This document shows, one piece after another, positions 14,131-59,277 of a stretch of 64,000 nucleotides of DNA. The translations under genes were made by a program, and so were the position numbers. Within the stretch, counting starts at the first letter, position 1. Each line of letters starts with the position of its first letter. Source of the DNA: Gemmatimonadota bacterium (lineage in GTDB: Bacteria; Latescibacterota; UBA2968; UBA8231); contig JABJJN010000020.1 in assembly GCA_018660835.1 (NCBI GenBank), positions 372,001-436,000 of the forward strand, in the 5' to 3' direction. The notes beneath the pieces were generated by a model. It was given only the letters and a program-made list of their open reading frames with translations. It ran no database searches and was not told the origin of the DNA.

Positions 14131-14302
14131 GACGATTTTGAGATAGGAGCTGCCGGGTTACGGTGGGTCGGGCTCATTCACGTCGCGATCAGGCTTAGTT
14201 CGAATCTTGTATTCTGTTTATTAACAGACACTTACCGATCCACGCTGGAATCTTCCGCACAATGATTCCCTAAGGCAGTAGTCGCTGGTACTTCCCTTGC
14301 TC

Positions 14303-14308
14303 AAGGAG
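14303..14308 (+). promoter_or_regulatory. Shine-Dalgarno that sets the ccoI start
   Basis: AAGGAG lies 6 bases before the GTG at 14315. The longer frame would start at a TTG at 14297, upstream of this site, so the GTG is the likely start. Confidence 0.75.
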
Positions 14309-14314
14309 TCCAGT

Positions 14315-16780
14315 GTGACCACTAGCCCACCCATCCCCGCTCTCGTCTGCGATCACTGCGGACAGTCCTGCCTCGACACTCGTGTCGAGGCGCTTGACCG
14401 GCTGTTCTGTTGCCACGGCTGTCGCACCGTGTTTGAGATTCTGCAGGACAATGGCCTGACCCACTACTACCGCCTCGAAGACCGACCCGGCATCCGCCTC
14501 GACAACGCAGAGGAACACGCAAGTCGTTTCAGCTATCTGGATGATGAAACACTGCAGGCGCAGTTATTGGACTTCAGCAATGGTGTCACGGCGACGATCA
14601 CCCTGCGCCTGCCACAGATTCACTGTGCCTCCTGTGTCTGGCTCCTCGAGAATCTGCGCCGCCTCGAACCTGCTGTAGCGCATTCAGAGGTCGACTTTCT
14701 CCGGCGCGAACTTGCTGTGACCTACCAGGTCGACTCCCTGTCCCTGCGTCGCCTGGTTGAACGACTTGCGTCGATTGGCTACGAACCGGAGATCACTCTC
14801 GACGCGACAACGCCAAAAACTGGATTCACTCAGGATCCGCTGTTGCGCAAGATCGGCATCGCCGGATTCTGCTTTGGCAATGCGATGCTTTTCAGTCTGC
14901 CGGAGTATTTCGCCGACGCAGGTGAGTTGAACACATCCTGGCAGCGACTCTTCAGTGGGTTGAATCTGGTCCTCGCCCTGCCCGTCCTGCTCTACAGCAG
15001 CACCGATTATCTGCGCGGCGCCCTACGCAGCCTCTCGCAGGCAACGACAACCATCGACGTCCCCATTGCCCTGGGGATCGTCGCGCTATTCTCCCGAAGC
15101 CTCTACGAGATCGTCAGTGGCGCAGGTCCGGGATACATGGACTCCTTCACGGGCCTCGTGTTCTTCCTCCTGTTGGGCAAACTCTTTCAGCGCAACAGTT
15201 TTTCGGCGTTGAGCTTCGAGCGTGACTACCGCTCCTATTTCCCTCTCGCCGTGAATGTGCGAGATGGACACGAGGAGGTGAGCGTCCCCGTCTCTGCCCT
15301 CGAACCGGGCCAGAGAATCATCGCCCGCCATGGCGAGTTGATCCCCGCCGATTGCCGCCTGCTCTCAACCCATGCCCTGTTGGACTTCAGCTATGTCACA
15401 GGTGAGTCGGATCCTGTCGAGGCCAGCCGCGGCGATCAGGTCTGGGCAGGTGGACGCGTAGTCAGTGGCGCCATCGAGCTCGTCGTTTTGCGTGACGTAT
15501 CACAGAGTTATCTGACACGATTGTGGAATCAGGATCTCTTCCATGGTCCGGCCACGGACGACCTGTCCCTGCTCGCCAATCGCTTCAGTCGCTGGTTCAC
15601 AGCAGCTGTGGTCAGCATCGCCGTCCTGACCGCTCTGTACTGGTTGCAGGCCGATCCAACCATCGCCATACACGCCGCCACGTCGGTACTGATTATCGCA
15701 TGTCCCTGCGCCCTGGCCCTGTCGACGCCCTTCACGACAGGTGCCGCCATGAACCTGCTGGCTCGCGTCGGACTCTATCTGCGCGAAGGCTCCGTCGTCG
15801 AAAAACTCGCAGGGATCTCAACGATTGTATTCGACAAGACCGGCACGCTGACCTCAACGCATCACAGTGACGTTGTCTTTGCAGGCACCGACGGTGATCT
15901 CACGGCGGCGCAGAAACTCGGCCTTGCAGCACTGCTGTCGAACTCCGTTCACCCTCTGAGTCGAAAACTGCTGGACCAATTACCGGCGGCCACTTCGCCA
16001 GAAGTCGCTGAATATCTGGAGGCACCGGGACTGGGCATCAGCGGCAGAATCGACAAGACGTCTTGGTGTGTCGGGTCGAGACAGTGGTTGATCCAGAACG
16101 GCGTGCCCCTGGAGCGGATCGTGGCCGGCACGGGCTCGGAGCAGTTGCATGCAGATGACCAGGACCCAACAGGTGCCACCGTCCACATCGCGGCCAATAG
16201 CATCCATCTCGGCATGTACAGATTGGGTCATGCCTATCGCGGCGGCCTGAGTCAGCTCATGGCACAGCTGCGCCGGCGCTATCAGTTGATGTTGTTGTCG
16301 GGCGACAACGATCGTGAACGCCAGCGCCTGTTGCCACTGATGGGTGACTCGACGCAGATGCACTTCTCCCAGTCGCCTGAGCAGAAGCTCGCCACCGTGC
16401 AGCGACTCGAACAGTCGCAATCTGTGATGATGGTCGGGGATGGTCTCAACGACGCCGGCGCGCTGCGCGGCAGCAGTGTCGGTATTGCCGTGAGCGAACA
16501 GATCGCCGCGTTCTCGCCCGCCTGTGATGGCATACTGGATGCAGACGCCATCCATCGCTTGCCGGCAATTCTGCACTTCGCACGGCTCTGCCTGGGCATC
16601 GTGATCGCCAGTTTCATCCTGTCATTGGCCTACAACATCATCGGCTTGAGTTTCGCCGTGCGCGGCAACCTGTCACCCCTGTTGAGTGCCGTGTTAATGC
16701 CTCTCAGTTCAGTCAGTGTCATCGCCTTCACGGCCATCGCGACACGCGGTGCCGCCAGATGGACAGGCCTTCGCCCATGA
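14315..16780 (+). CDS. ccoI: Copper-exporting P1B-type ATPase CcoI
   Basis: An 821-residue heavy-metal P-type ATPase needed to supply copper for cbb3 oxidase assembly at the inner membrane. The N-terminus carries the Cys-rich metal-binding segment typical of CcoI/FixI (CDHCGQSC, then CCHGC), followed by an HMA domain with CASC at residues 104-107. Membrane helices include the CPC ion site at 463-465. The phosphorylation motif DKTGTLT starts at Asp507 and GDGLNDAGAL near residue 710. The start is the GTG at 14315, chosen for its AAGGAG. The stop overlaps the ccoS start (ATGA). Placing ccoI and ccoS first in the operon, before the oxidase subunits, differs from the usual NOQP-GHIS order. Confidence 0.93.
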   Translation: MTTSPPIPALVCDHCGQSCLDTRVEALDRLFCCHGCRTVFEILQDNGLTHYYRLEDRPGIRLDNAEEHASRFSYLDDETLQAQLLDFSNGVTATITLRLPQIHCASCVWLLENLRRLEPAVAHSEVDFLRRELAVTYQVDSLSLRRLVERLASIGYEPEITLDATTPKTGFTQDPLLRKIGIAGFCFGNAMLFSLPEYFADAGELNTSWQRLFSGLNLVLALPVLLYSSTDYLRGALRSLSQATTTIDVPIALGIVALFSRSLYEIVSGAGPGYMDSFTGLVFFLLLGKLFQRNSFSALSFERDYRSYFPLAVNVRDGHEEVSVPVSALEPGQRIIARHGELIPADCRLLSTHALLDFSYVTGESDPVEASRGDQVWAGGRVVSGAIELVVLRDVSQSYLTRLWNQDLFHGPATDDLSLLANRFSRWFTAAVVSIAVLTALYWLQADPTIAIHAATSVLIIACPCALALSTPFTTGAAMNLLARVGLYLREGSVVEKLAGISTIVFDKTGTLTSTHHSDVVFAGTDGDLTAAQKLGLAALLSNSVHPLSRKLLDQLPAATSPEVAEYLEAPGLGISGRIDKTSWCVGSRQWLIQNGVPLERIVAGTGSEQLHADDQDPTGATVHIAANSIHLGMYRLGHAYRGGLSQLMAQLRRRYQLMLLSGDNDRERQRLLPLMGDSTQMHFSQSPEQKLATVQRLEQSQSVMMVGDGLNDAGALRGSSVGIAVSEQIAAFSPACDGILDADAIHRLPAILHFARLCLGIVIASFILSLAYNIIGLSFAVRGNLSPLLSAVLMPLSSVSVIAFTAIATRGAARWTGLRP

Positions 16781-16968
16781 GCGCTCTCTACATGCTGATC
16801 GGCTGCAGCATCACTGTAGCTTTGATTTTTCTTGCGGCGTTTCTCTGGGCCCTCCGGTCCGAACAATATCGAGATACGCACACACCTGCGATGCGGATGC
16901 TCTTCGAGGAGGAATCCGCTCACGACAATTCACATCCCCGCGACTCTGGTGAGGAGAATAACACGTGA
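16777..16968 (+). CDS. ccoS: cbb3 oxidase maturation protein CcoS
   Basis: A 63-residue protein with one transmembrane helix (residues 4-25) starting MSALYMLIGCS and followed by WALRSEQYRD, the CcoS/FixS pattern. CcoS is needed to place heme and copper in the catalytic subunit. It overlaps ccoI by four bases and its TGA overlaps the GTG start of the oxidase gene. The tail after residue 40 is acidic and hydrophilic and longer than in many homologs. The start at 16777 is favoured over the ATG at 16759. Confidence 0.85.
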   Translation: MSALYMLIGCSITVALIFLAAFLWALRSEQYRDTHTPAMRMLFEEESAHDNSHPRDSGEENNT

Positions 16969-19535
16969 CCATAGACAATAAGCAGAACCCGGCGGCTGCC
17001 GCCGCCAGCTCATCACCACCTCTGGACGAGTTTCACTATGACAATCGCACGGTCCGCGACTTTGGTGTCGCCACCCTCGTCTGGGGAATCGTCGGATTCC
17101 TTGTAGGGCTGATCGTGGCCCTCAAGCTCGTCTACCCAGAGTTCCTCGGGGCCATCCCGCAGCTGTCCTATGGACGCCTGCGACCACTGCATACAAATGC
17201 GGTCATCTTCGCCTTTGCGGGCAATGCCATCTTCTTCGGCGTCTACTATTCCCTGCCACGCCTCTGCAAAGCGCCTATGTGGAGCACTGCCCTGAGTCGG
17301 ATTCACTTCTGGGGCTGGCAATTGATCATCGTCGCCGCAGCGCTGACGCTGACAGCGGGAATCAACACGAGCAAGGAATACGCTGAGCTCGAGTGGCCCA
17401 TCGACATCGCCATCGCTCTGATCTGGGTCGTGTTTGGCGCCAACATGATGGCGACGATCTACACGCGTCGAGTACGTCACATGTATGTGGCCATCTGGTT
17501 CTATCTGGCCACATTCCTCACCGTCGCTCTACTGCACATCGTCAATTCACTCGCCCTGCCGGTGAGTCTATTCAAGAGCTACTCCGTGTATGCCGGCGTA
17601 CAGGATGCGCTCGTGCAGTGGTGGTATGGCCACAATGCGGTCGCCTTCTTCCTGACCACGCCATTCCTGGGGATCATGTACTACTTCATCCCGAAGGTGG
17701 CGAACCGTCCCGTGTTCTCCTATCGACTGTCAATCATCCATTTCTGGGCACTCGTGTTTATCTACATCTGGGCGGGTCCTCATCATCTGCTCTACACGGC
17801 ATTGCCAGAATGGGCTCAGTCTCTTGGCGTCGTCTTTTCGATCATGCTCATCGCCCCCTCCTGGGGTGGTATGATCAATGGGCTGCTGACCCTGCGCGGT
17901 GCATGGGACACCGTACGCGAGAGTCCAGTTTTGAAGTTCCTCGTCATCGGTATCACCGCCTATGGCATGGCAACCTTCGAGGGCCCCATGATGGCCCTCA
18001 AGAACGTCAACGCCCTGACGCACTACACAGACTACACCATCGCCCACGTTCACATGGGTGCCCTCGCCTGGAATGGCGGTCTCACCTTCGCCATGCTCTA
18101 CTACATCTTCCCGAAGATCTTTCGCACGGAGCTGTACTCCGTCAAGATGGCGAACCAGCATTTCTGGCTGGCTACGCTGGGGATCATCTTCTACGTCCTG
18201 TCCATGTATTTCGGCGGCATCACACAGAGTCTGATGTGGAAGGAATTCACCGCCGAAGGCTTGCTGCGTTATCCGAACTTCCTGGAGACAGTGACGCAGA
18301 TCATTCCCATGTATGGACTGCGGGCCGTGGGGGGTGGCATGTACATCCTTGGCGCGTTGCTGTGTGTCTACAATATCTGGTGCACTGTGCGCCAGGGAGA
18401 TCTGTTGGCTGCCGAGCCAGATCAGGCGGCACCCCTTGCCGAGGGACGCCTGCATCGTGACACGTCGATCCACCGCTGGCTCGAGAGTCGTCCCACACAG
18501 TTCGCCATCCTGACACTCATTGCGGCCCTGATCGGTGGCGTCGTCGAATACGTGCCAACGGCCCTGATCAAGTCGAATATCCCCACGATTGCCGCCGTAA
18601 AACCTTATACACCCCTCGAGTTGGAGGGTCGCGACGTCTATATCGCGGAAGGCTGCAATGGTTGTCACTCGCAGATGATTCGGCCCTTCCGTTCAGAGGT
18701 CGAACGCTACGGCGACTACTCGAAGGCCGGTGAATTCGTCTACGATCACCCCTTCCTCTGGGGATCGAAACGGACCGGCCCCGATCTGCACCGAGTCGGC
18801 GGCAAGTATCCGGATTCGTGGCACGCGCTGCACATGAAGGACCCCGCAGCGACATCACCCGGTACGATCATGCCAGCGTATCCCTGGCTCTTTGACGATC
18901 ACTACGACGCGTCGGCGATCGGTTCCAAGGTCGCTGCCATGCGCACACTCGGCGTTCCCTATGAAGAGGGCTACGAGGAACGCGCCAGCGATGATATGCT
19001 GCAGCAGGCGCGCAAGATTGCTTCAGGCCTGACGGAGAGTGGCATGGAGATCGATGCCAATAGCCAGCTCGTCGCCCTTGTGGCCTATCTGCAACGTCTG
19101 GGCACGGACATTCGCTCCGACCCAGCCTACGTGCAGCAGCTGGAATCAATGATGACGAAGGTCGCGACGGGACCAGGATTCGAAGGGGCTCGACTACTCG
19201 TCGACGCGGCGGACGTCACGGCGGGCAAAGAGATCTTCAATGCTCAGCGCAACCTCTGTTACACCTGCCATCGCAACGACCTGGGTGGCCAGGTGGGACC
19301 GAATCTGACGGACGGACACTGGCTGCACGGCTGTACCGTCGCCGAGATCATGAGCAACATCAAGAGTGGTTTCCAGATGAAGGGCATGCTGCCCTATGGC
19401 AGTGGCAAGTCACTCACAGAGCAGGAGCTGCAGCAGGTGGCAAGCTTCATCATTTCCCTCCAGGGAAGTTCGCCTGGCAACCCGAAGGCCGTCGATCCCG
19501 AGCGCGCCTCACCTTGCCAAGCCCAGAGCTGGTAG
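16965..19535 (+). CDS. ccoNO: cbb3 cytochrome c oxidase fusion: CcoN + CcoO + CcoP heme domain
   Basis: An 856-residue fusion. Residues 25-490 are CcoN, the heme-copper catalytic subunit. The low-spin heme ligands are in RPLHTNAVIF and IAHVHMG, and the CuB ligands in WYGHNAVAF and the GPHH pair; the Tyr in FIYIWAGPHH is the likely cross-linked residue. Residues about 515-715 are CcoO, with one anchor helix and heme-c site CNGCH (Cys564-His568). Residues about 745-845 are a further class I cytochrome c domain with CYTCH (Cys765-His769) and NLTDGHWLHG, IKSGFQMKGMLP and a SLQGSSPGNPKA end, all hallmarks of a CcoP C-terminal domain. CcoN-CcoO fusions are known; adding the CcoP heme domain is unusual. 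Total c-type hemes are two, against three in canonical enzymes. The start is a GTG overlapping the ccoS stop, with GAGGAG upstream. Confidence 0.92.
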   Translation: MTIDNKQNPAAAAASSSPPLDEFHYDNRTVRDFGVATLVWGIVGFLVGLIVALKLVYPEFLGAIPQLSYGRLRPLHTNAVIFAFAGNAIFFGVYYSLPRLCKAPMWSTALSRIHFWGWQLIIVAAALTLTAGINTSKEYAELEWPIDIAIALIWVVFGANMMATIYTRRVRHMYVAIWFYLATFLTVALLHIVNSLALPVSLFKSYSVYAGVQDALVQWWYGHNAVAFFLTTPFLGIMYYFIPKVANRPVFSYRLSIIHFWALVFIYIWAGPHHLLYTALPEWAQSLGVVFSIMLIAPSWGGMINGLLTLRGAWDTVRESPVLKFLVIGITAYGMATFEGPMMALKNVNALTHYTDYTIAHVHMGALAWNGGLTFAMLYYIFPKIFRTELYSVKMANQHFWLATLGIIFYVLSMYFGGITQSLMWKEFTAEGLLRYPNFLETVTQIIPMYGLRAVGGGMYILGALLCVYNIWCTVRQGDLLAAEPDQAAPLAEGRLHRDTSIHRWLESRPTQFAILTLIAALIGGVVEYVPTALIKSNIPTIAAVKPYTPLELEGRDVYIAEGCNGCHSQMIRPFRSEVERYGDYSKAGEFVYDHPFLWGSKRTGPDLHRVGGKYPDSWHALHMKDPAATSPGTIMPAYPWLFDDHYDASAIGSKVAAMRTLGVPYEEGYEERASDDMLQQARKIASGLTESGMEIDANSQLVALVAYLQRLGTDIRSDPAYVQQLESMMTKVATGPGFEGARLLVDAADVTAGKEIFNAQRNLCYTCHRNDLGGQVGPNLTDGHWLHGCTVAEIMSNIKSGFQMKGMLPYGSGKSLTEQELQQVASFIISLQGSSPGNPKAVDPERASPCQAQSW

Positions 19536-19544
19536 GAGACCGAC

Positions 19545-19736
19545 ATGTATAAGGAAGTCCTTGCTTCGATTGATGGGGTAGCGATCTACCCCATCATCTC
19601 ACTGGTGATCTTCTTCACCTTTTTCGTCGGCCTCCTCGCCTGGTTCGTTCTGGCCGACCGCACACGACTGCAGCGCTTCGCGCGCCTGCCACTCGACGAC
19701 GACAATGCCGACAAGGAGGCGACATCCCATGGCTGA
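19545..19736 (+). CDS. ccoQ: cbb3 oxidase small subunit CcoQ
   Basis: A 63-residue single-helix membrane protein. The helix (residues 15-37, with [17 protein letters not shown]) is followed by a basic then acidic tail, which fits CcoQ/FixQ. CcoQ stabilises the interaction of CcoP with CcoNO. The start is nine bases after the fusion gene's stop, and the last eight bases overlap the following ccoP-anchor gene. Confidence 0.75.
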
Positions 19737-20064
19737 ACTGCAAGAAGGCGAAGTGCTGCACGGACACGAATACGACGGCATACAGGAACTCGACAATGAT
19801 CTGCCCAGATGGTGGTTGTTTGGATTTTACTTCACCATCGTCTTTGGTGTGGTCTATTGGATCTACTACCACATGTCGAGCCTGGGACCGAGTCCCGAGC
19901 AGGAGTTTCTGCGTGAGATGGCAGACGCCGGGTATCGCGTGCCCAGTGCTGCCCTTCAGGGTGTGACCGAGCAGGACCTGTTGCTGGGCGTCGTCGGCGT
20001 GCTGTGTGCCATTGGCGCCCTCATCTTTGCGGAGTTGTTACGCGCTGATCGTAGCGACAGCTAA
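19729..20064 (+). CDS. CcoP N-terminal anchor (FixP_N-like) without heme domains
   Basis: The 111-residue protein has [18 protein letters not shown] followed by a transmembrane helix with [15 protein letters not shown], the standard N-terminus of CcoP/FixP. A second hydrophobic segment lies at residues 84-103. In canonical CcoP this anchor is followed by two heme-c domains; here no CxxCH occurs at all. One CcoP-like heme domain is found instead at the C-terminus of the upstream fusion. The AAGGAG at 19713-19718 gives a good ribosome-binding site for the ATG at 19729. Its likely role is structural, holding the assembled oxidase, but this is inferred. Confidence 0.8.
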
Positions 20065-20074
20065 GCAAGACCGA

Positions 20075-21496
20075 ATGGCAACGCCACGCACAGCTTACGA
20101 GGAGAATTTCCGCGATCATCTGGGCAATGTCGCGCCCGATGGCTCACGGACGAAGATCCGTCCTCGCAAGCCACGCGGGCCCTTTCACCGGGCCCGCGTG
20201 GGCGTGAGTTGGTTGTTGCTGGCGGTTCTGTTTGGTGGCCCCTTCATCACCATCAATGGCCATCCACTGCTGTTGTTGAATGTCATTGAGCGCAAGTTCG
20301 TTCTGTTCGGCGTGCCCTTCTGGCCGCAGGACCTGTTTTTGTTTCTCCTCGTCGTACTCACCATCGTCGTCTTCATCGTCCTGTTTACATCGATCTTCGG
20401 TCGCCTCTGGTGTGGCTGGGCTTGTCCGCAGACGATTTTCCTGGAGATGGTCTTTCGCAAGATCGAGTATTTGCTCGAGGGCGATGGTGTGCAGCAGCGA
20501 CGTCTTGATAAGGCACCGTGGACGACGGACAAGATCATTCGCAAGACGTCCAAACACGGCATCTATCTGGCCTTGTCCTTTCTGATTTCGAACACCTTCC
20601 TTGCCTATGTCATCGGCATTGATCAGCTCTGGGTCATCGTCACCGATCCACCCAGTCAGCATCTGGTCGGTCTGTTCACGATCACCATCTTCAGTCTGGT
20701 CTTTTATGGTGTCTTTGCCCGTTTCCGTGAGCAGGCCTGCATCATCGCCTGCCCATACGGACGCTGGCAATCGGTGATGGTGAATCGCGAGACGATTGCC
20801 GTCACGTATGACAACAAGCGCGGTGAACCACGGGGCAAAGCACGTCGAGATGGCGAGGATGTCGACGGACTCGGCGACTGCGTCGAGTGCCGACAGTGTG
20901 TCCAGGTCTGCCCCACAGGAATCGACATTCGCAATGGCATTCAGATGGAATGTGTGAATTGCACGGCCTGCATCGATGCCTGTGATGAGATCATGGATCG
21001 CGTGGAACGGCCGCGGGGGCTGGTTCGCTATTCGTCACTTGGTCGAATTGAAGAGGGCCGTCAGCGCGTGCTGACGCCACGAACGGTGGGCTACGGCGCC
21101 GTACTGGTCGCTTTGCTGGTGACGGTCGTTATCTTGTTCAGCACGCGTGCGCAGGTGCAGGCTGTCATCCTGCGCGAACCGGGGAAACTCTACAATGAGT
21201 TGTCCGATGGACGGCTATCCAACTTCTATTCTGTGAAAATCATCAACAAGACCTTCGAGGAAATCCCCGTAGAAATCCGTCTGCTGACACCACCGGAGGG
21301 AGAGCTGATCTATCTCGGCGATTTCTCCTCGGTGCCACCTCAGGGGATCGCTGAGGGGCGTTTCTATCTGGCACTGCCCAGGAATATTCTTTCTGCAGGC
21401 CGCAATGACATTCACTTTTCTGTCGTTTCCGGGAGTGAAAGCGTGTCCGAGATCACATCAAGCTTCCTTGCACCCCACGATGTCGGTGCACCATGA
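20075..21496 (+). CDS. ccoG: cbb3 oxidase accessory ferredoxin-type protein CcoG
   Basis: A 473-residue membrane protein with about five helices and cytoplasmic iron-sulfur domains, matching CcoG/RdxA/FixG. Cysteine motifs in order are CGWACPQ, CIIACPYGRW, CVECRQCVQVCP and CVNCTACIDACD, enough for two [4Fe-4S] clusters plus further cysteines. The C-terminal 110 residues are an immunoglobulin-like FixG_C domain. CcoG is reported to reduce Cu(II) to Cu(I) for cbb3 biogenesis. The ATG at 20075 was chosen because upstream in-frame codons overlap the previous gene. The final four bases overlap fixH. Confidence 0.93.
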   Translation: MATPRTAYEENFRDHLGNVAPDGSRTKIRPRKPRGPFHRARVGVSWLLLAVLFGGPFITINGHPLLLLNVIERKFVLFGVPFWPQDLFLFLLVVLTIVVFIVLFTSIFGRLWCGWACPQTIFLEMVFRKIEYLLEGDGVQQRRLDKAPWTTDKIIRKTSKHGIYLALSFLISNTFLAYVIGIDQLWVIVTDPPSQHLVGLFTITIFSLVFYGVFARFREQACIIACPYGRWQSVMVNRETIAVTYDNKRGEPRGKARRDGEDVDGLGDCVECRQCVQVCPTGIDIRNGIQMECVNCTACIDACDEIMDRVERPRGLVRYSSLGRIEEGRQRVLTPRTVGYGAVLVALLVTVVILFSTRAQVQAVILREPGKLYNELSDGRLSNFYSVKIINKTFEEIPVEIRLLTPPEGELIYLGDFSSVPPQGIAEGRFYLALPRNILSAGRNDIHFSVVSGSESVSEITSSFLAPHDVGAP

Positions 21497-21960
21497 GTGC
21501 CGGCGACCGGGGCAGATCCTGGGCGTGGGGCATCATTGCGGGATACGTCGTGTTTGTCGCCCTCACGCTGACCATGGTCGGTATCGCCTTCTCCATGCGT
21601 GTCGATCTGGTCAGCGATGATTACTACCAACGCGAGATGAATCACCAGCAGCACATTGATCGTGTTGCGCGCACCGCCGCTCTGCCAGAGGGTGTCGAGT
21701 GGACGGTGAGCCACCAGAATGGCGTGTTCGTCTTCCATCTGCCCGCAGACCACTTCGGTCATGATCTGGCAGGGCAGATCCACTTTTATCGTCCCGACAA
21801 TGTCGACCTCGATCGAGCCTACGACATCAGCCTCGATCGGACGGGGGAACAGCATATCGCCGCTGATGAACTGGCTCCGGGACACTGGCGTATTCGCATT
21901 GAGTGGACGGCACAGGGGCTCGACTATTACAGCGAACGTACTCTGAGCTTTGGAGCGTAG
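21493..21960 (+). CDS. ccoH: FixH/CcoH family cbb3 assembly protein
   Basis: A 155-residue protein with one N-terminal helix (residues 8-32) and a periplasmic beta-rich domain. The segment VSDDYYQREMNHQQ after the helix and the WRIRIEW strand near residue 136 are typical of FixH. CcoH takes part in cbb3 assembly and interacts with CcoP. It overlaps ccoG by four bases and its TAG overlaps the GTG start of the next gene. Confidence 0.87.
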   Translation: MSAGDRGRSWAWGIIAGYVVFVALTLTMVGIAFSMRVDLVSDDYYQREMNHQQHIDRVARTAALPEGVEWTVSHQNGVFVFHLPADHFGHDLAGQIHFYRPDNVDLDRAYDISLDRTGEQHIAADELAPGHWRIRIEWTAQGLDYYSERTLSFGA

Positions 21961-22658
21961 TGGACGCCTGGACAGCATTACTTCTGGGACTCGGCGGTAG
22001 CCTGCACTGCGTTGGCATGTGTGGCCCCCTGGCCCTGGCCTTGTCAGGTGGAAGCAACCGACGGGCCGCCTTTCTCCTGGGTCGTGTACTCTACAATGGC
22101 GGTCGTGTCCTCACCTATGTCCTGCTTGGTGGACTGTTTGGCTTGCTCGGTGGCTGGCTCCAGATGGCCGGATGGCAGCAGACACTGTCTGTCGCAGTAG
22201 GTGCCATCATCCTCGTCAGCACAACGTTGACTCTGTTGCGACGACGTCTGCCGTTGGCTTCGTTGCCGGCCCGTGTCGTGGACACACTCAAACGCGCCCT
22301 GGGCAGACTGCTGCGGCTCGAATCGCCCTCAGGGCTGCTGTCGATTGGTGTCCTGAATGGCTTGTTGCCCTGTGGTCTGGTGTATGTCGCCCTTGCCGGC
22401 TCTGTGACAACCGGTGGTGTGGTACAGGGCATGACCTATATGGCACTGTTCGGTGCCGGCACGATCCCACTCATGCTGACAACCAGTCTGATGGGGCGTT
22501 TGATCCTGCGCCCGCGCGTGCAGGCTCTGGCCCTGCGAGCAGTCCCAGTAAGCATGTTGCTCCTCGGATTCTGGTTCGTGCTACGCGGGCTGGGATTGGG
22601 GATTCCCTATCTGTCGCCCATTCTCGGCGCTGACGGCATGGCGCATCATGGTCATTGA
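21960..22658 (+). CDS. SafE/UreH-domain sulfite-exporter-like membrane protein of the cbb3 operon
   Basis: A 232-residue protein with six or so hydrophobic helices. It opens LLLGLGGSLHCVGMCGPLALALS, the Cys-containing first helix of TauE/SafE-type (PF13386) proteins commonly found at the end of cco operons. GLLPCGLVYVALAGS in the second half is the internal repeat of that motif. These proteins are believed to help heavy-metal or copper handling during oxidase assembly; the substrate is not known. The start is GTG at 21960, overlapping the stop of fixH by one base. It is the last gene in the operon. Confidence 0.82.
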   Translation: MDAWTALLLGLGGSLHCVGMCGPLALALSGGSNRRAAFLLGRVLYNGGRVLTYVLLGGLFGLLGGWLQMAGWQQTLSVAVGAIILVSTTLTLLRRRLPLASLPARVVDTLKRALGRLLRLESPSGLLSIGVLNGLLPCGLVYVALAGSVTTGGVVQGMTYMALFGAGTIPLMLTTSLMGRLILRPRVQALALRAVPVSMLLLGFWFVLRGLGLGIPYLSPILGADGMAHHGH

Positions 22659-34454: not shown

Positions 34455-35843
34455 TCAGAGAGAGCGCATGCGCGTTTCCCCATACCACTGCCCCATCCTC
34501 TCATACAGACCCCCACGAGCCACCTGGCCTTCGGCGGCGTCGTAAAGATTGTGCAACTCATCGGGGTCGCTGCGCAGATCATACAGCTCGCCATAGGACT
34601 GCCCCAGGTAGGCCACCAATTTCCAGTCTCGACTGCGTACCATGACGCGCTGACCGTGCTCTGAGAAGACCGTATCGTGCACACTCTCCTGTTCACCGGC
34701 CAGTTGCCCAGACAAGGGTTGCCCCATGGCCCCTTCGAGTGCTTCAAGACCGGCCATCTGCAGGAAGGTTGGCCCCAGATCGATCAGCTCCACCAGTGGA
34801 TCGCGGGTTCCCTGGGCCATGACGCCGGCACCGGCGAAAACCAAAGGGACACGGGCGACCGGGTCATAGTGACTCGAGAATTTGTAGACCTGATGATGAT
34901 CACCAAGGCAATCCCCGTGGTCGGATGTGAAGACAAACAAGGTATTGTCCAGTTGGCCTCGCGCCTCGACACAGGCCACGATCTTCCCAACCCAGTCGTC
35001 CATCAGCGTCACATTCGCGTAGTAGTGCTTGCGCATGCGCCGAATGCGCTCGGGCGTCGCTCGGCTCCACCAGACAGCAGCCGGTGATCGTCTGCCATCC
35101 ATTCCGTCCATCGCCGCCTGTTGAGGGGGCGGCTTGGTAGCCAGTTCGCCATCATATCCCACGGGATCCGGCACGTCCACATCATCATACAGACGCAGAA
35201 AAGATTCCGTCACGTCATAGGGATCGTGGGGCCCGGTGAATCCGCACCAGAGGAACAGGGGCCGTTGAAAATCACATTCTTCGAGGTATTCAACCGTCGT
35301 TCGCCCGACATAGTTGTCAGGATACAGATCATCATCATGAGGCCAGACCGTCGCCTGCAGTCTGTCGGGCCAGTCGTCGATTTGCTTGTAGTACGTGAGC
35401 GCCGGCCGCTTGAGGCCATGATGGGCTAGAAAGAGATCGTAGTCATCCGGGTCCGGACCGTGATGGCCCTGCTGATAGTTCTTGTTTTCTACAACCGTAC
35501 GATGCTCAAAGCCTACGGGCAGTCGAATGGGCGCCGTATGCATCTTGCCCACATTGGCCGTCTGATATCCACCTGCCCGCAGCGACTCGATCCAGTTTGG
35601 CTGGTCGGGTCGCAGCCATTGTTCATTCCCCTCCACGCCGTGTGAGTGCACGTACTGACTCGAAACGATGCTGTTGCGTGAAGGACCACATACTGCCCCC
35701 TGGGCAAAGGCATGAGTAAAGCTCACGCCGCGGCGGGCGAGACGGTCGATGTGAGGTGTGATCATGTGTTGGTAACCATTGCAGGCCAGCGTATCCCAGC
35801 GCTGCTGGTCGGTCATGATCAGAATGATGTTGGGTTGACTCAT
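34455..35843 (-). CDS. Sulfatase (formylglycine type), sulfatase 1
   Basis: A 462-residue sulfatase of the alkaline-phosphatase fold. PNIILIMTDQQRWD begins the protein and supplies the metal-binding Asp residues. The formylglycine motif is CGPSR at residues 52-56; Cys52 must be oxidised by a maturase. FTSDHGDCLGDHHQ near residue 305 supplies the remaining metal ligands, and NVGKMH is near 97. DLYPDNYVGRTTV and the C-terminal LYDLRSDPDELHNL are typical of the choline-sulfatase or DUF4976-type branch. The start was placed at the MSQPN methionine (35843); the longer frame to 35927 only adds unrelated residues. No signal peptide is visible. It diverges from glycerol kinase. Confidence 0.88.
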   Translation of the reverse strand: MSQPNIILIMTDQQRWDTLACNGYQHMITPHIDRLARRGVSFTHAFAQGAVCGPSRNSIVSSQYVHSHGVEGNEQWLRPDQPNWIESLRAGGYQTANVGKMHTAPIRLPVGFEHRTVVENKNYQQGHHGPDPDDYDLFLAHHGLKRPALTYYKQIDDWPDRLQATVWPHDDDLYPDNYVGRTTVEYLEECDFQRPLFLWCGFTGPHDPYDVTESFLRLYDDVDVPDPVGYDGELATKPPPQQAAMDGMDGRRSPAAVWWSRATPERIRRMRKHYYANVTLMDDWVGKIVACVEARGQLDNTLFVFTSDHGDCLGDHHQVYKFSSHYDPVARVPLVFAGAGVMAQGTRDPLVELIDLGPTFLQMAGLEALEGAMGQPLSGQLAGEQESVHDTVFSEHGQRVMVRSRDWKLVAYLGQSYGELYDLRSDPDELHNLYDAAEGQVARGGLYERMGQWYGETRMRSL

Positions 35844-35982
35844 TTGCGCCTTGGCATGGGGTGAGGCGGCGCATAAACTCCCGCGCCTGCCCCACATGTC
35901 CGGACTCACATGTATAGGTCTGCACATAATGCCAAAAAGAGACGTGGATCAAATGACCCAGATCAGTTGCTCGCAGAATCAG

Positions 35983-44795: not shown

Positions 44796-46241
44796 TCACG
44801 TGCCCCCGTCTGCAGCGACGCCCTGGGCGGCACCGGCCTTTACCTCCTCCAGGATTTGTTTTAGCTCGGCGACAATCTTCGGTTGGTCACCGTAGCGATT
44901 CACTCGTTGACCGAGATCCTCGCGCAAATCGTAGAGTTCACCCGGATGTGAGTGTGGTTCATACCCACGCTGCTGTTGCAGCCACTCCGGTTCCTTGTTG
45001 TCCCCGCCTGTCGCATCATCGATGAAAACCCAGTCACCACGACGAATCGCGAAGCGCCCCGTCATACTGTGGTGGACGGCACAGCGCCTGACCGGACCTG
45101 CGCCCCGTAACAGCGGCACAATGCTGACGCTATCCTCCCCGGCACCGTCCGGGACATCACACGCCGCAAGTTCAGCACAGGTCGCCATCAGATCACCCAG
45201 CGTCGTGAGGTGATTACATGAACTACCCGCTTCGATCACCTCGGGCCAACGAGCGACGAAAGGCACCCGGTGGCCCCCCTCCCAGGCGTCGCGTTTGAGA
45301 CCACGCAGATCCCCCATGCTGTAATGGTCATGCTCGCGAATCCGCTCGTAGGCGAAGTGCTCCGGCCCATTGTCACTGGTGAAGATGATGAGCGTATTCT
45401 GATCCTTGCCCTCACGCTCGAGGGCGTCCATCACCTGCCCCACACACCAGTCCACCTCACAGACATAGTCACCATACTCACCGGCCCCACTCAGACCGCG
45501 AAAATCGGCGGTGGGCACGATGGGGGTGTGTGGTGCAGTGAGGGGAAAATAGAGGAAGAAGGGTTCGTCATCCGCCTGCTCGATGTAGTCGACAACACGC
45601 CCCGTAAGGGTGGGCATGACCTGATCCAGCGCCCAGTCAGGAACCATCTGCCCTGGGGCACCGAACATCTCCTCTGGCTTAGCTACGGTCGGCACGTCGA
45701 CAACATGGTCATCTTCGAACCACGTATAGGGTGGGAAGTTTGGAACGTCATCACCGAAGTAGCTTTCGAAGCCATGGTCCGTCGGGCCACCACGCATCGG
45801 CTTCGTGTAGTCGATCAGCGACTCGACGCCGGGGCGCTGCTCACGATCAAAGCTGCCAAAATCCACGTGATCATTTGCTCGTGATCCATCGGTCAATTCC
45901 CAGTCCCAACCCAGGTGCCACTTGCCAATGCAAGCCGTCCGGTATCCCGCGTCTCGCAGGACATCTGCCACGGTCGGCCTCTCTGGCTCGATCAGTGCTG
46001 CATCCCACTGCCAGACGATGCCATTCTTGAGACGCGAACGCCAGCAATAGCGCCCCGTCAGGACAGCGTAGCGACTCGGTGTGCAGACACTCGAAGGTGC
46101 ATGCGCATTGGTAAATCGCATGCCCTGCTGTGCAAGCCGATCCAGATGCGGTGTAGGGATCCTGGAGTGGGAGTTGTTGCAACCCATATCTCCATATCCC
46201 ATGTCGTCGGCGAGGATGTAGATGACATTAGGTCGACTCAT
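44796..46241 (-). CDS. Sulfatase (arylsulfatase A-like), sulfatase 2
   Basis: A 481-residue sulfatase. PNVIYILADDMGYGDMG opens the protein with the metal-binding Asp pair, and the formylglycine motif CTPSR is at residues 53-57, followed by YAVLTGRY. CIGKWHLG near residue 105 and FTSDNGPEH near 289 complete the active site. The C-terminal region ends with a hydrophilic segment (YDLREDLGQRVNRYGDQP). The first codon of the open frame is GTG (46244) but the ATG at 46241 is preferred. There is no signal peptide. It is the last gene of a minus-strand cluster starting at the DRE-TIM lyase; the UroD/MtaA-like gene ends 15 bases upstream. Confidence 0.88.
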   Translation of the reverse strand: MSRPNVIYILADDMGYGDMGCNNSHSRIPTPHLDRLAQQGMRFTNAHAPSSVCTPSRYAVLTGRYCWRSRLKNGIVWQWDAALIEPERPTVADVLRDAGYRTACIGKWHLGWDWELTDGSRANDHVDFGSFDREQRPGVESLIDYTKPMRGGPTDHGFESYFGDDVPNFPPYTWFEDDHVVDVPTVAKPEEMFGAPGQMVPDWALDQVMPTLTGRVVDYIEQADDEPFFLYFPLTAPHTPIVPTADFRGLSGAGEYGDYVCEVDWCVGQVMDALEREGKDQNTLIIFTSDNGPEHFAYERIREHDHYSMGDLRGLKRDAWEGGHRVPFVARWPEVIEAGSSCNHLTTLGDLMATCAELAACDVPDGAGEDSVSIVPLLRGAGPVRRCAVHHSMTGRFAIRRGDWVFIDDATGGDNKEPEWLQQQRGYEPHSHPGELYDLREDLGQRVNRYGDQPKIVAELKQILEEVKAGAAQGVAADGGT

Positions 46242-56997: not shown

Positions 56998-57938
56998 CGC
57001 TTCTCCAGCCAAAATGGTTGCGACCAGCCCATGGCAGCACCGCGTCCGTAACACTCGGCGCGGGCATAGATCTCGCCACGGTTCATGTCGCCGAGGGGGG
57101 CAGCAAGGATCTCAGCCACACTCAGCGTGCTGTCCCCTCCTGCGTCCTTCTTCAGGATCACACCACCATTCACAATCCAGCGCACTTGCTCCGCATTGGA
57201 TGTGACATATGCCGTACCATTGCTGACGCCAACCGCGTCGATGCGGACACCGGTAGAGGCCGTAAATCGCCCCGCCGCGAGGGCCTCCACAATTCCCACT
57301 GCGTCCACACTTCGCCCCTGGGGCCACTGCACTCTATTCCAACCGATGAAACGATCCGCTTCGTCGTGCTGATCGTCTGTGGCGTGCCCCCAGACTCGTC
57401 TACCAGCACTCAGTAGGCGATCCCAGCGATCCGTCGCCAACGCCACACCTGACAGTCGTTCAATCACCCCACAGTAGATCTCCATGCCACGCAGACCCTC
57501 CATCGACAGCAGCAATTCGTCCGTCGCATAGTCTGGAAAAGGGGTCCAGTTTGGGTGATCGAAAACGAAGAGGCCACCCCCGGCCTCGACCGCCTGCAGG
57601 ATCTGTGGTGCTGTGAGTTGTCGCGCCGGAAGTGCCGTACGGGCACCCAGATGCATCAAGGTCTGTCCCCGATCGGAACTGACTTCGACGGCAGGTAGCA
57701 GACAGAGCGTTGCTTGCGGATAGTCCTCTGGGTCGACGAAGAGGTCGTGCTCGCTCAAGGCCAGATATTGATATCCGGCTGCTTCGTATGCATCAATCAA
57801 TTGCTGCGGCGTCTCGTGTCCATCTGACAGGGTCGAGTGTCCGTGATGATTCCCACGCAGCCAATCACTTGGGACATCGGGATCGAGATAGGGCGAGAGA
57901 AAGTGATATGAGTCAGCCATTGCGGCCTGTCTAGACAT
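56994..57938 (-). CDS. PHP-domain (CehA/McbA-like) metallohydrolase
   Basis: A 314-residue PHP-fold protein. GNHHGHSTLSDGH near residue 30 holds the first metal-binding His cluster, YLALSEHDLF near 58 the second, LPAVEVS near 80 the Glu, VFDHPNW near 125 and WGHATDDQHDEADRF near 180 the later His/Asp ligands. Such proteins hydrolyse phosphoesters or aryl esters; CehA-type members act on carbamates. The start is uncertain among 57962, 57938 and 57920; the ATG at 57938 is chosen because it overlaps the sulfatase stop by eight bases, as elsewhere in this operon. Cytoplasmic. Confidence 0.78.
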   Translation of the reverse strand: MSRQAAMADSYHFLSPYLDPDVPSDWLRGNHHGHSTLSDGHETPQQLIDAYEAAGYQYLALSEHDLFVDPEDYPQATLCLLPAVEVSSDRGQTLMHLGARTALPARQLTAPQILQAVEAGGGLFVFDHPNWTPFPDYATDELLLSMEGLRGMEIYCGVIERLSGVALATDRWDRLLSAGRRVWGHATDDQHDEADRFIGWNRVQWPQGRSVDAVGIVEALAAGRFTASTGVRIDAVGVSNGTAYVTSNAEQVRWIVNGGVILKKDAGGDSTLSVAEILAAPLGDMNRGEIYARAECYGRGAAMGWSQPFWLEKR

Positions 57939-59277
57939 CTGCTCGCTTCGAACTGTCATCAAGCCGACGCATCTGCTCTATCGCCTCACTCAGGTCACGT
58001 ACTCGTTCAACTTCATCGTTGACCAGATCCTGCTCTTCGTGGGGATCTCTGACAATGTCAAATAGCTCGTTGACGCGTTCACCCTCTATCTCACGATCGA
58101 TGAGTTTCCAATCACCGTGACGAACGCCGAGATTCCGGTCACCACGAAAATTCCAGAACAGCGTTCGATCATCCGGGCTTTCTTCAAGTGATGCGCCGAC
58201 GCCTTCGATCTGCGCCCACACGTCGCGACCATCCCACTGTGGATCATGCTCAAGCGTCGCACCTGCGAGTTGGATGAAGGTTGGCATCCAGTCGACGACC
58301 TGCAGTGGGGCGTCGACGACACCCGGCGCCAGATGACTGCGCCAGTTCACCAGAGTGGGCACCCGTACACCGCCCTCATAGAGCTGTGCCTTCACGCCCC
58401 GATAAGGAAGATTGGATCCCAACCGCGCATACGCCTCCTGCCAACCAGGATACTTGTCGGTTCCATGCAATGGCAGATCATTGATCCCACCATTGTCGGA
58501 AGTGAAGACGACGATCGTGTTCTCCCGTTCGCAGGTCCGCTCCAGTGCCTCCAGCAGTTGTCCGATGGCGGCATCCATGTGGCTCGTGTAGGCGGCGTAT
58601 TTACGAAAGGATGCATCTCTTGCCGGATCATCGTCGAAGTGAACACCATCATACTGAGCGACGGAATCCTGTGTTGGTTTGATCGGCACGTGTACCGCCG
58701 TGAAAGGCACATAACAGAACCAGGGACCCTTTCGAGACTCGATCCACTCGACGGCCTGACGTGCAATAAGATCCGTAACGTGCCCTTGCTCTTCCATCAG
58801 GGTGCCATCGGAATGCCACGTAACCGAGTGCTCACCACGCTTGTAGAAGTGGTTGTACGGGTCCACGCCCCCCGCCAGACTGCCATAGGCTCGATCAAAT
58901 CCGAAATGATTCGGTCCAAATTGCGGCGCTGAGCCCAGATGCCATTTGCCGAACAGACCCGTCTCGTATCCCGCCAAACGCAGAGTGGTTGCGAGAGTGA
59001 CATAACCATCCGGCAGCACGGGCGCATTCGATGGCACCGTCGCGTGCGCGCCAAATCGACTGGGGTGTCTACCCGTCAGCAGGGAGGCCCGTGTCGGCGT
59101 GCACATGGGGCAGACGTAGTGTTGGGTGAGTTCCACACTGTCCGTGGCGAGACGATCCAGAATCGGCGTGCGAATCGGTGCGCCGTGAAATCCGACATCT
59201 CCCCAACCCAGATCGTCGGCAAGGATATAGAGAATATTGGGTTGATCGGGTTTGGCAGGCTCAGCCTGATCAGGCAT
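57931..59277 (-). CDS. Sulfatase (arylsulfatase A-like), sulfatase 3
   Basis: A 448-residue sulfatase. PNILYILADDLGWGDVG near residues 13-29 and the formylglycine motif CTPTR at 59-63, followed by ASLLTGRHPSRFG, are diagnostic. The CxPxR core has Thr rather than the common Ser at the fourth position, which is tolerated in the family. LFGKWHLG near 106 and VVFTSDNGG near 265 complete the active site. The methionine at 59277 (MPDQAEPAKP) is used; the frame upstream belongs to the aldolase gene. There is no signal peptide. Its start overlaps the aldolase stop by eight bases, and the PHP gene overlaps its end, giving one translationally coupled operon. Confidence 0.88.
   Translation of the reverse strand: MPDQAEPAKPDQPNILYILADDLGWGDVGFHGAPIRTPILDRLATDSVELTQHYVCPMCTPTRASLLTGRHPSRFGAHATVPSNAPVLPDGYVTLATTLRLAGYETGLFGKWHLGSAPQFGPNHFGFDRAYGSLAGGVDPYNHFYKRGEHSVTWHSDGTLMEEQGHVTDLIARQAVEWIESRKGPWFCYVPFTAVHVPIKPTQDSVAQYDGVHFDDDPARDASFRKYAAYTSHMDAAIGQLLEALERTCERENTIVVFTSDNGGINDLPLHGTDKYPGWQEAYARLGSNLPYRGVKAQLYEGGVRVPTLVNWRSHLAPGVVDAPLQVVDWMPTFIQLAGATLEHDPQWDGRDVWAQIEGVGASLEESPDDRTLFWNFRGDRNLGVRHGDWKLIDREIEGERVNELFDIVRDPHEEQDLVNDEVERVRDLSEAIEQMRRLDDSSKRADV

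Follow-up and report, generated by a model that had tools for sequence, protein, structure and literature searches.

CcoP is usually treated as one unit of the cbb3-type oxidases, enzymes that respire at low oxygen, at once an anchor on CcoN and the carrier of the hemes through which electrons enter the enzyme. Two fusions affecting its partner subunits are already known, that of CcoN and CcoO into a single CcoNO polypeptide (NF011053), present in Melioribacter roseus according to a published description (PMC5492636), and that of CcoO with a cytochrome c domain (NF011054). For the model enzyme, another paper (PMC7876108) gives an electron path from cytochrome c2 through cp2, cp1, co and b to b3, and reports crosslinks of CcoH to CcoP and CcoN. 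Here we describe an operon in which the anchoring and heme-carrying roles of CcoP lie on different proteins. It is located in the window, the 64,000-nucleotide stretch of DNA that was analysed (contig JABJJN010000020.1 of a Gemmatimonadota bacterium, positions 372,001 to 436,000, forward strand). One gene (16965..19535, + strand, in window coordinates) encodes an 856-residue fusion of CcoN, CcoO and a CcoP-type heme domain, and the second gene after it (19729..20064, +) encodes a 111-residue CcoP lacking CxxCH. A sequence-only reading had placed this feature at 16965-20064, and its coordinates, the order of the fused parts, the two CxxCH motifs and the identification of the small protein as a CcoP N-terminal anchor all proved right. 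In what follows, G and L numbers denote the genomes and loci compared, G000 being the window's own genome.

A Pfam search of the fusion gave COX1 at residues 30-458 (397.6 bits), FixO at 503-716 (318.9 bits) and Cytochrome_CBB3 at 749-829 (43.3 bits, with a cut-off of 27), and two CxxCH motifs were found, starting at 564 and 765. The CcoN part (residues 1-490, 16965..18434, +) exceeded the cut-off of TIGR00780, the model for CcoN of the cbb3 type (630.4 vs 583.15 bits), and matched five PDB CcoN sequences with E values of 2.6e-163 or better. Its residues 25-478 could be aligned with solved cbb3 subunits (3mk7, 9g6b), and the segments LHTNA, WWYGHN, YIWAGPHH, TFEGPM and HVHxGAL are conserved with respect to chains 3mk7_A and 9g6b_A; we take these segments to be the ones that hold the heme and CuB ligands. 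The CcoO part (residues ~501-716, 18465..19112, +), which includes CNGCH at 564-568 and ends in RLGTDI, matched TIGR00781 (242.7 bits vs a cut-off of 200.65), and C564, C567 and H568 were invariant in our alignment (A1). Past this usual CcoNO end there is a linker of ~27 residues (717-743, 19113..19193, +), delimited by alignment with CcoNO ends and with the heme parts of relatives' CcoPs, and then the relocated heme domain with its tail (residues ~744-856, 19194..19532, +), containing CYTCH at 765-769, Cys 790, Met 808 and Cys 851. The whole protein scored above the cut-off of the fused CcoNO model NF011053 (1221.5 vs 1080 bits) and below that of the CcoO-cytochrome c model NF011054 (252.5 vs 447 bits, residues 506-833). 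Neither CcoP piece reached the 179.95 bits of TIGR00782, which describes CcoP as one protein: the anchor scored 61.9 and the fused domain 44.3 bits, FixP_N and the heme domain being split between two proteins. These matches point to an oxygen reductase of the C family (cbb3 type), from the branch in which CcoN and CcoO are fused and CcoP has one heme, an assignment that we consider probable as part of the overall explanation given below.

The origin of the C-terminal domain was analysed in a tree of 123 cytochrome domains, obtained by a short search with support from the Shimodaira-Hasegawa-like approximate likelihood ratio test only. The five fused domains of the window's phylum formed one clade (98) and were placed with the CcoP domains of L140, L009, L149, L122 and L135 (93). 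All of these belong to a clade of 34 rows (99) whose other members are CcoP domains; the CcoO cytochromes lay far from them. Identity to CcoP domains was up to 59% (L140, L149) and 60% (CcoP of G708), and homology extended from about 'LLVDAADVTAGKEIF' (residue 744) to the C-terminal end, tail included, where NPKAVDPER..C matches CcoP tails in the alignment. By its position in the tree and by its tail the domain is of CcoP origin, as had been proposed, and not a CcoO or an unrelated cytochrome c. C765, C768, H769 and M808 were invariant across 40 aligned domains, M808 being the putative axial ligand. A cysteine following the PNLTD..W.HG motif (HGC) was present in 23 of 106 CcoPs, every one of which also has a cysteine in the tail; the tail cysteine occurs without that of HGC in 8 more of the 106. 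The window's domain has both, and a disulfide between C790 and C851 is probable. All 6 PDB sequences matched by the domain (E up to 0.01) are CcoP chains; in comparison with a di-heme CcoP (6xkw_p) the scores were 28.6 bits for domain 1 and 32.7 for domain 2, and the alignment to TIGR00782 fell at positions 108-203. When modelled alone, the domain adopted a cytochrome c fold with a predicted local distance difference test score (pLDDT) of 84; the best 50 of 287 structure matches to this model included no cbb3 entry, so the fold does not single out CcoP.

The number of hemes usually carried by CcoP beside a fused CcoNO was determined in 110 loci, 80 from public-genome relatives and 30 from other genomes, which provided 107 CcoP open reading frames (ORFs) once L061, L123 and L144, without a readable CcoP, were left out. 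One CxxCH was present in 103 of the 107, two in 3 and none in 1 (L021), whose ORF stops at a contig end. Because mono-heme CcoP is the rule beside fused CcoNO, the two c-hemes of the window's operon are the inherited number; mono-heme CcoP is ancestral here, and the loss of a second CcoP heme, with two c-hemes replacing three, that the sequence-only reading had assumed is ruled out. Other CcoP architectures were also observed in this set. In the CcoP of L077 (10574-11503), from the SAR324 cluster, two heme domains of close similarity lie in tandem, and a recent duplication has probably restored a di-heme CcoP; in the CcoPs of L013 (10328-11566) and L016 (10208-11596) the FixP_N anchor is preceded by an additional cytochrome c domain.

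The heme-less protein retains FixP_N at residues 8-51 (PF14715, 77.6 bits), aligns with CcoP N-termini to about residue 75 and matches solved CcoP chains over residues 9-52. In place of the heme domain, residues 81-107 are strongly hydrophobic (Kyte-Doolittle mean up to 2.45), a feature shared by all four anchors examined and not found in the CcoPs of L140, L149, L009 and L132. This second hydrophobic helix would be expected to span the membrane, in which case the C-terminus of the anchor would be back in the cytoplasm. Between G005 and G009, the pair at which the synonymous substitution rate (dS) is not yet saturated or nearly so, the anchor showed a dS of 0.244 and a nonsynonymous rate (dN) of 0.020, that is, a dN/dS of about 0.08; CcoNO and the fused domain are constrained too. 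The anchor is under purifying selection, and this persistence of selection on a heme-less protein implies that the FixP_N helix is required in its own right. These values bear directly on the idea of a degenerate operon, with an inactive oxidase and a heme-less CcoP that is a decaying remnant. Such an idea could be prompted by the heme-bearing CcoP found in 106 of the 107 ORFs mentioned above, the remaining one being truncated where its contig ends; selection on the anchor, CcoNO and the domain, together with the presence of ccoI, ccoS, ccoG and ccoH and the intact CcoN segments, makes it very improbable.

The same architecture was sought in 64 genomes of the window's phylum and found in five of them (G000, G005, G007, G009 and G019), all from uncultured bacteria and within one family of 25. 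The fusion is a single open frame in G000, G005, G007 and G019 (including L087-L089, further loci with the fusion) and two adjacent frames in G009; those of G005, G007 and G019 are 74-82% identical to the window's protein over query residues 13-856, without a stop. At all five loci the fusion is followed by a CcoQ-like ORF and then by a FixP_N ORF without CxxCH. The assembly of the window's genome consists of 105 contigs and is 93% complete with 8% estimated contamination, figures that could raise the suspicion of a chimera or a frameshift artefact in a single metagenome bin. The recurrence of the same single-frame gene in other assemblies contradicts this, unless all share the same error, and leaves it a negligible probability. 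A distant CcoN/CcoO-like gene was also seen in another genus of the family (L091/L115, G017:C276), matching in two pieces (28% and 44% identity) with one stop; the 28% of this sixth match is over the CcoN part.

In the phylum of G064, FixP_N exceeded its cut-off in 251 of 395 genomes, and among the fusion matches listed for those 395 genomes none went beyond query residue 768. G452, with the shortest frame (156 aa) among the matches listed, was rejected as a heme-less FixP_N protein, since it is a CcoP with heme that the end of its contig truncates. The long frames of G176 (998 aa), G246, G197 and G247 were likewise discarded as fusions, since they have one CxxCH in the CcoNO frame.

A separate CcoP gene completing the oxidase was looked for in the window's genome, where one CcoNO and one FixP_N, the latter within the operon, were found. 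Outside the operon no full CcoP was detected in that assembly with TIGR00782 at E values up to 1e-5; the two matches obtained there (C29:267467 and C95:85693) are di-heme cytochromes without FixP_N, which form a long separate branch elsewhere in the 123-domain tree. Near the second of them (L006, C95:85693-86079), at G000:C95:83371-84660 (L162, L121), there is a gene for a third and divergent COX1 protein (219 bits). These searches speak to the alternative that the fused domain is an extra electron-entry cytochrome, like the third heme of the Neisseria CcoP, and that an unlinked CcoP elsewhere completes the enzyme. The genome is only 93% complete, and G708 and G625, discussed below, do have a fused domain alongside a CcoP. 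The single FixP_N, the nature of the TIGR00782 matches and the recurrence of this operon arrangement across five of the family's genomes all argue against this alternative, and we regard it as improbable.

More distant relatives provided information on how the domain came to be joined to CcoNO. Of 391 genomes drawn from the class of G263, 186 gave a match, and in two of these, G708 and G625, a single frame spans query residues 20-852 and 19-851, respectively. Within the order of G708 (123 genomes searched), such a C-extended CcoNO was found in 2 of the 65 genomes with a CcoNO match; the long frames of G760 (1003 aa) and G619 (975 aa), whose matches end at 719 and 740, might be further cases. 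The operons of both genomes (L190, G708:C81; L191, G625:C48) encode a CcoP-type heme domain on CcoNO plus a FixP_N CcoP with its own CxxCH, adding up to three predicted c-hemes, and the extension begins after the same RLGTDI end as in the window. When everything past RLGTDI was cut, the genes of the window, G005, G007, G708 and G625 formed one clade (98/83) in a CcoNO tree of 55 rows, built without L150, L183, L194, L010, L011, L012, L055 and L058, in which the cutting motifs were not found; the same grouping was obtained (95/92) with a chosen subset of 35 rows cut less strictly. L119 was left out of the CcoNO trees owing to its frame break. With ccoQ and the FixP_N part still lying downstream, the fusion of the domain cannot be explained by a simple deletion. 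Copying followed by loss fits better than a simple move, because G708 and G625 carry both copies and the window's CcoNO has theirs as its sister group. Thus, of the proposal that the domain had been moved to the end of the fusion, the presence of a CcoP domain on CcoNO holds, and the simple move is not supported. A copy made first and a loss that came later, each once, is probably the better route, though not a proven one, the domain tree allowing one or two origins. In the CcoNO trees the fused genes nest inside a Bacteroidota branch, a label that rests on L009; this nesting and the patchy presence of the fusion (5/25, some genomes being incomplete) suggest lateral transfer. Other fusions of a cytochrome c to CcoNO, with the mono-heme CcoP retained, were seen in L053, L055 and L058, with repeated fusion at the same CcoNO end.

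The explanation that we consider most likely, and reasonably probable as a whole, is that the operon encodes a working cbb3 oxidase in which the CcoP heme is tethered to the catalytic chain and CcoP itself is purely structural. A copy of the CcoP heme domain would have been joined to the C-terminus of CcoNO through the linker, after which CcoP of the window's lineage would have lost its own heme domain, ending instead in the second hydrophobic helix. The tethered heme (765) would receive electrons from a c-type donor of the periplasm, itself probably supplied by alternative complex III, and would pass them on, within the one polypeptide, to the heme of CcoO (564), heme b and the heme b3-CuB centre. 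An NrfD gene at C84:20668-21633, near another COX1 gene at C84:14362-15690 in the window's genome, would fit the presence of this complex. The heme-less CcoP would remain as a structural or assembly subunit, its FixP_N helix packing on CcoN or being required during assembly. Electrons need not enter in another order than in the relatives, and the changed entry path of the sequence-only reading found no support: the same domain would probably occupy the same place in the chain, with only its polypeptide tether being different. With slightly less assurance, although still on the favourable side, we propose jointly that CcoP, having acquired another membrane helix, is now a purely structural subunit without redox function, its heme being hard-wired to the catalytic chain, and that living relatives keep three states: an ancestral one with two c-hemes, one of them on CcoP, an intermediate one with three and a domain on both proteins, and a derived one with two and the domain on CcoNO.

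Several results weigh against this explanation. The domain tree, made with 115 columns and a chosen subset of 38 domains, does not confirm a single fusion: the best free tree puts the window's domains with the CcoP domains, not the fused ones, of G708 and G625 (71/81), and a tree constrained to unite the seven fused domains is 2.6 log units worse (p-AU 0.214, approximately unbiased test). A tree in which the fused domains of G708 and G625 were held with their own CcoPs, the arrangement that a separate duplication would produce, scored 1.6 log units above the free tree (p-AU 0.635). There could then have been two separate events, the window's lineage having independently transferred its CcoP heme domain onto CcoNO and G708 and G625 having duplicated theirs, with architecture and mechanism unchanged. 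That fusions of this kind arise repeatedly, as L053, L055 and L058 indicate, would be in line with this. The extension-free CcoNO trees, however, unite the C-extended genes, the extension starts after the same RLGTDI end, and the rarity of C-extended genes in the order of G708 makes a chance double origin on adjacent branches less likely, so that we see two events as possible but rather unlikely. In G009 (L119, G009:C123, around 4134) the frame is broken between the CcoN and CcoO parts, by an assembly error or a real break. With the completeness and contamination values given above, a second CcoP might lie outside the assembly, and the search for a second FixP_N covered the window's genome, one of the five with the fusion. 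The pair of HGC and tail cysteines is not present in all close CcoPs, L122 and L135 lacking the former. Finally, when the complete fusion was modelled with AlphaFold, pLDDT was <50 over most of its C-terminal domain, too low to show a docking on CcoO.

The fusion is best read with the whole cbb3 operon, which extends over 14297-22658 on the + strand and contains the accessory genes ccoG, ccoH, ccoI and ccoS, all identified by Pfam or TIGR matches. It begins with a ccoI-like gene for a heavy-metal P-type ATPase, presumed to deliver Cu for CcoN (14297..16780, +; Pfam E1-E2_ATPase, HMA and ATPase-cat_bd, and operon position), and the gene for the assembly protein CcoS (FixS; 16759..16968, +; PF03597, 66.6 bits; TIGR00847, 45.2 bits), whose stop overlaps the GTG start codon of the fusion (GTGA). 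Between the fusion and the heme-less CcoP gene, the ATG of which is preceded by AAGGAGG, lies a ccoQ-like gene (19545..19736, +), assigned by its position; its 63-aa product has no Pfam match, and six related loci encode at this position a small protein with 38-67% identity to it. Downstream are ccoG (FixG/RdxA; 20075..21496, +; TIGR02745, 423.2 bits), ccoH (FixH; 21493..21960, +; PF05751, 81.1 bits) and a gene for a DsbD_2 family membrane protein (21951..22658, +; PF13386, 146 bits), a similar ORF following in L190 and L191. Elsewhere in the window, three ORFs, at 34458-35927, 44799-46241 and 57934-59277 (-), have what we take to be sulfatase-like N-termini.

A heme-less CcoP beside a heme-bearing CcoNO was not found described among the open-licence papers listed, at the level of titles and the beginnings of abstracts. 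If the explanation favoured here is true, the three states of the relatives would distinguish the function of CcoP in assembly from its redox function, and they would constitute ready-made constructs for its roles in assembly, donor docking and supercomplex formation. Comparison with known systems defines what is particular to this operon. The fused CcoNO of Bacteroidota and Ignavibacteriota (NF011053, PRK14485) likewise joins CcoN and CcoO in one polypeptide, with a small protein and CcoP downstream; the relatives of this type that were examined carry the heme domain of CcoP on their FixP_N protein, whereas in the window CcoNO carries it and the FixP_N protein lacks CxxCH. NF011054 (PRK14486) also has a cytochrome c domain after CcoO in one chain, but its model, of 294 positions, does not include CcoN. 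The neisserial tri-heme CcoP and its truncated di-heme form (PMC2924362) are a comparable case of heme domains gained and lost on a cbb3 subunit by fusion and truncation, although the origin of the extra domain is traced there to cytochrome c5, and CcoP still has two or three hemes. L053, L055 (Maribellus) and L058 share with the window an extra CxxCH domain after CcoO; unlike the window, these loci keep a CcoP that bears heme, and their extra domains have other positions in the domain tree; in the 35-row tree the CcoNO of L055 and L058 lie outside the window's branch. The operons of G708 and G625 share with the window a CcoP-type heme domain placed on CcoNO after RLGTDI, and differ from it in keeping a mono-heme CcoP.

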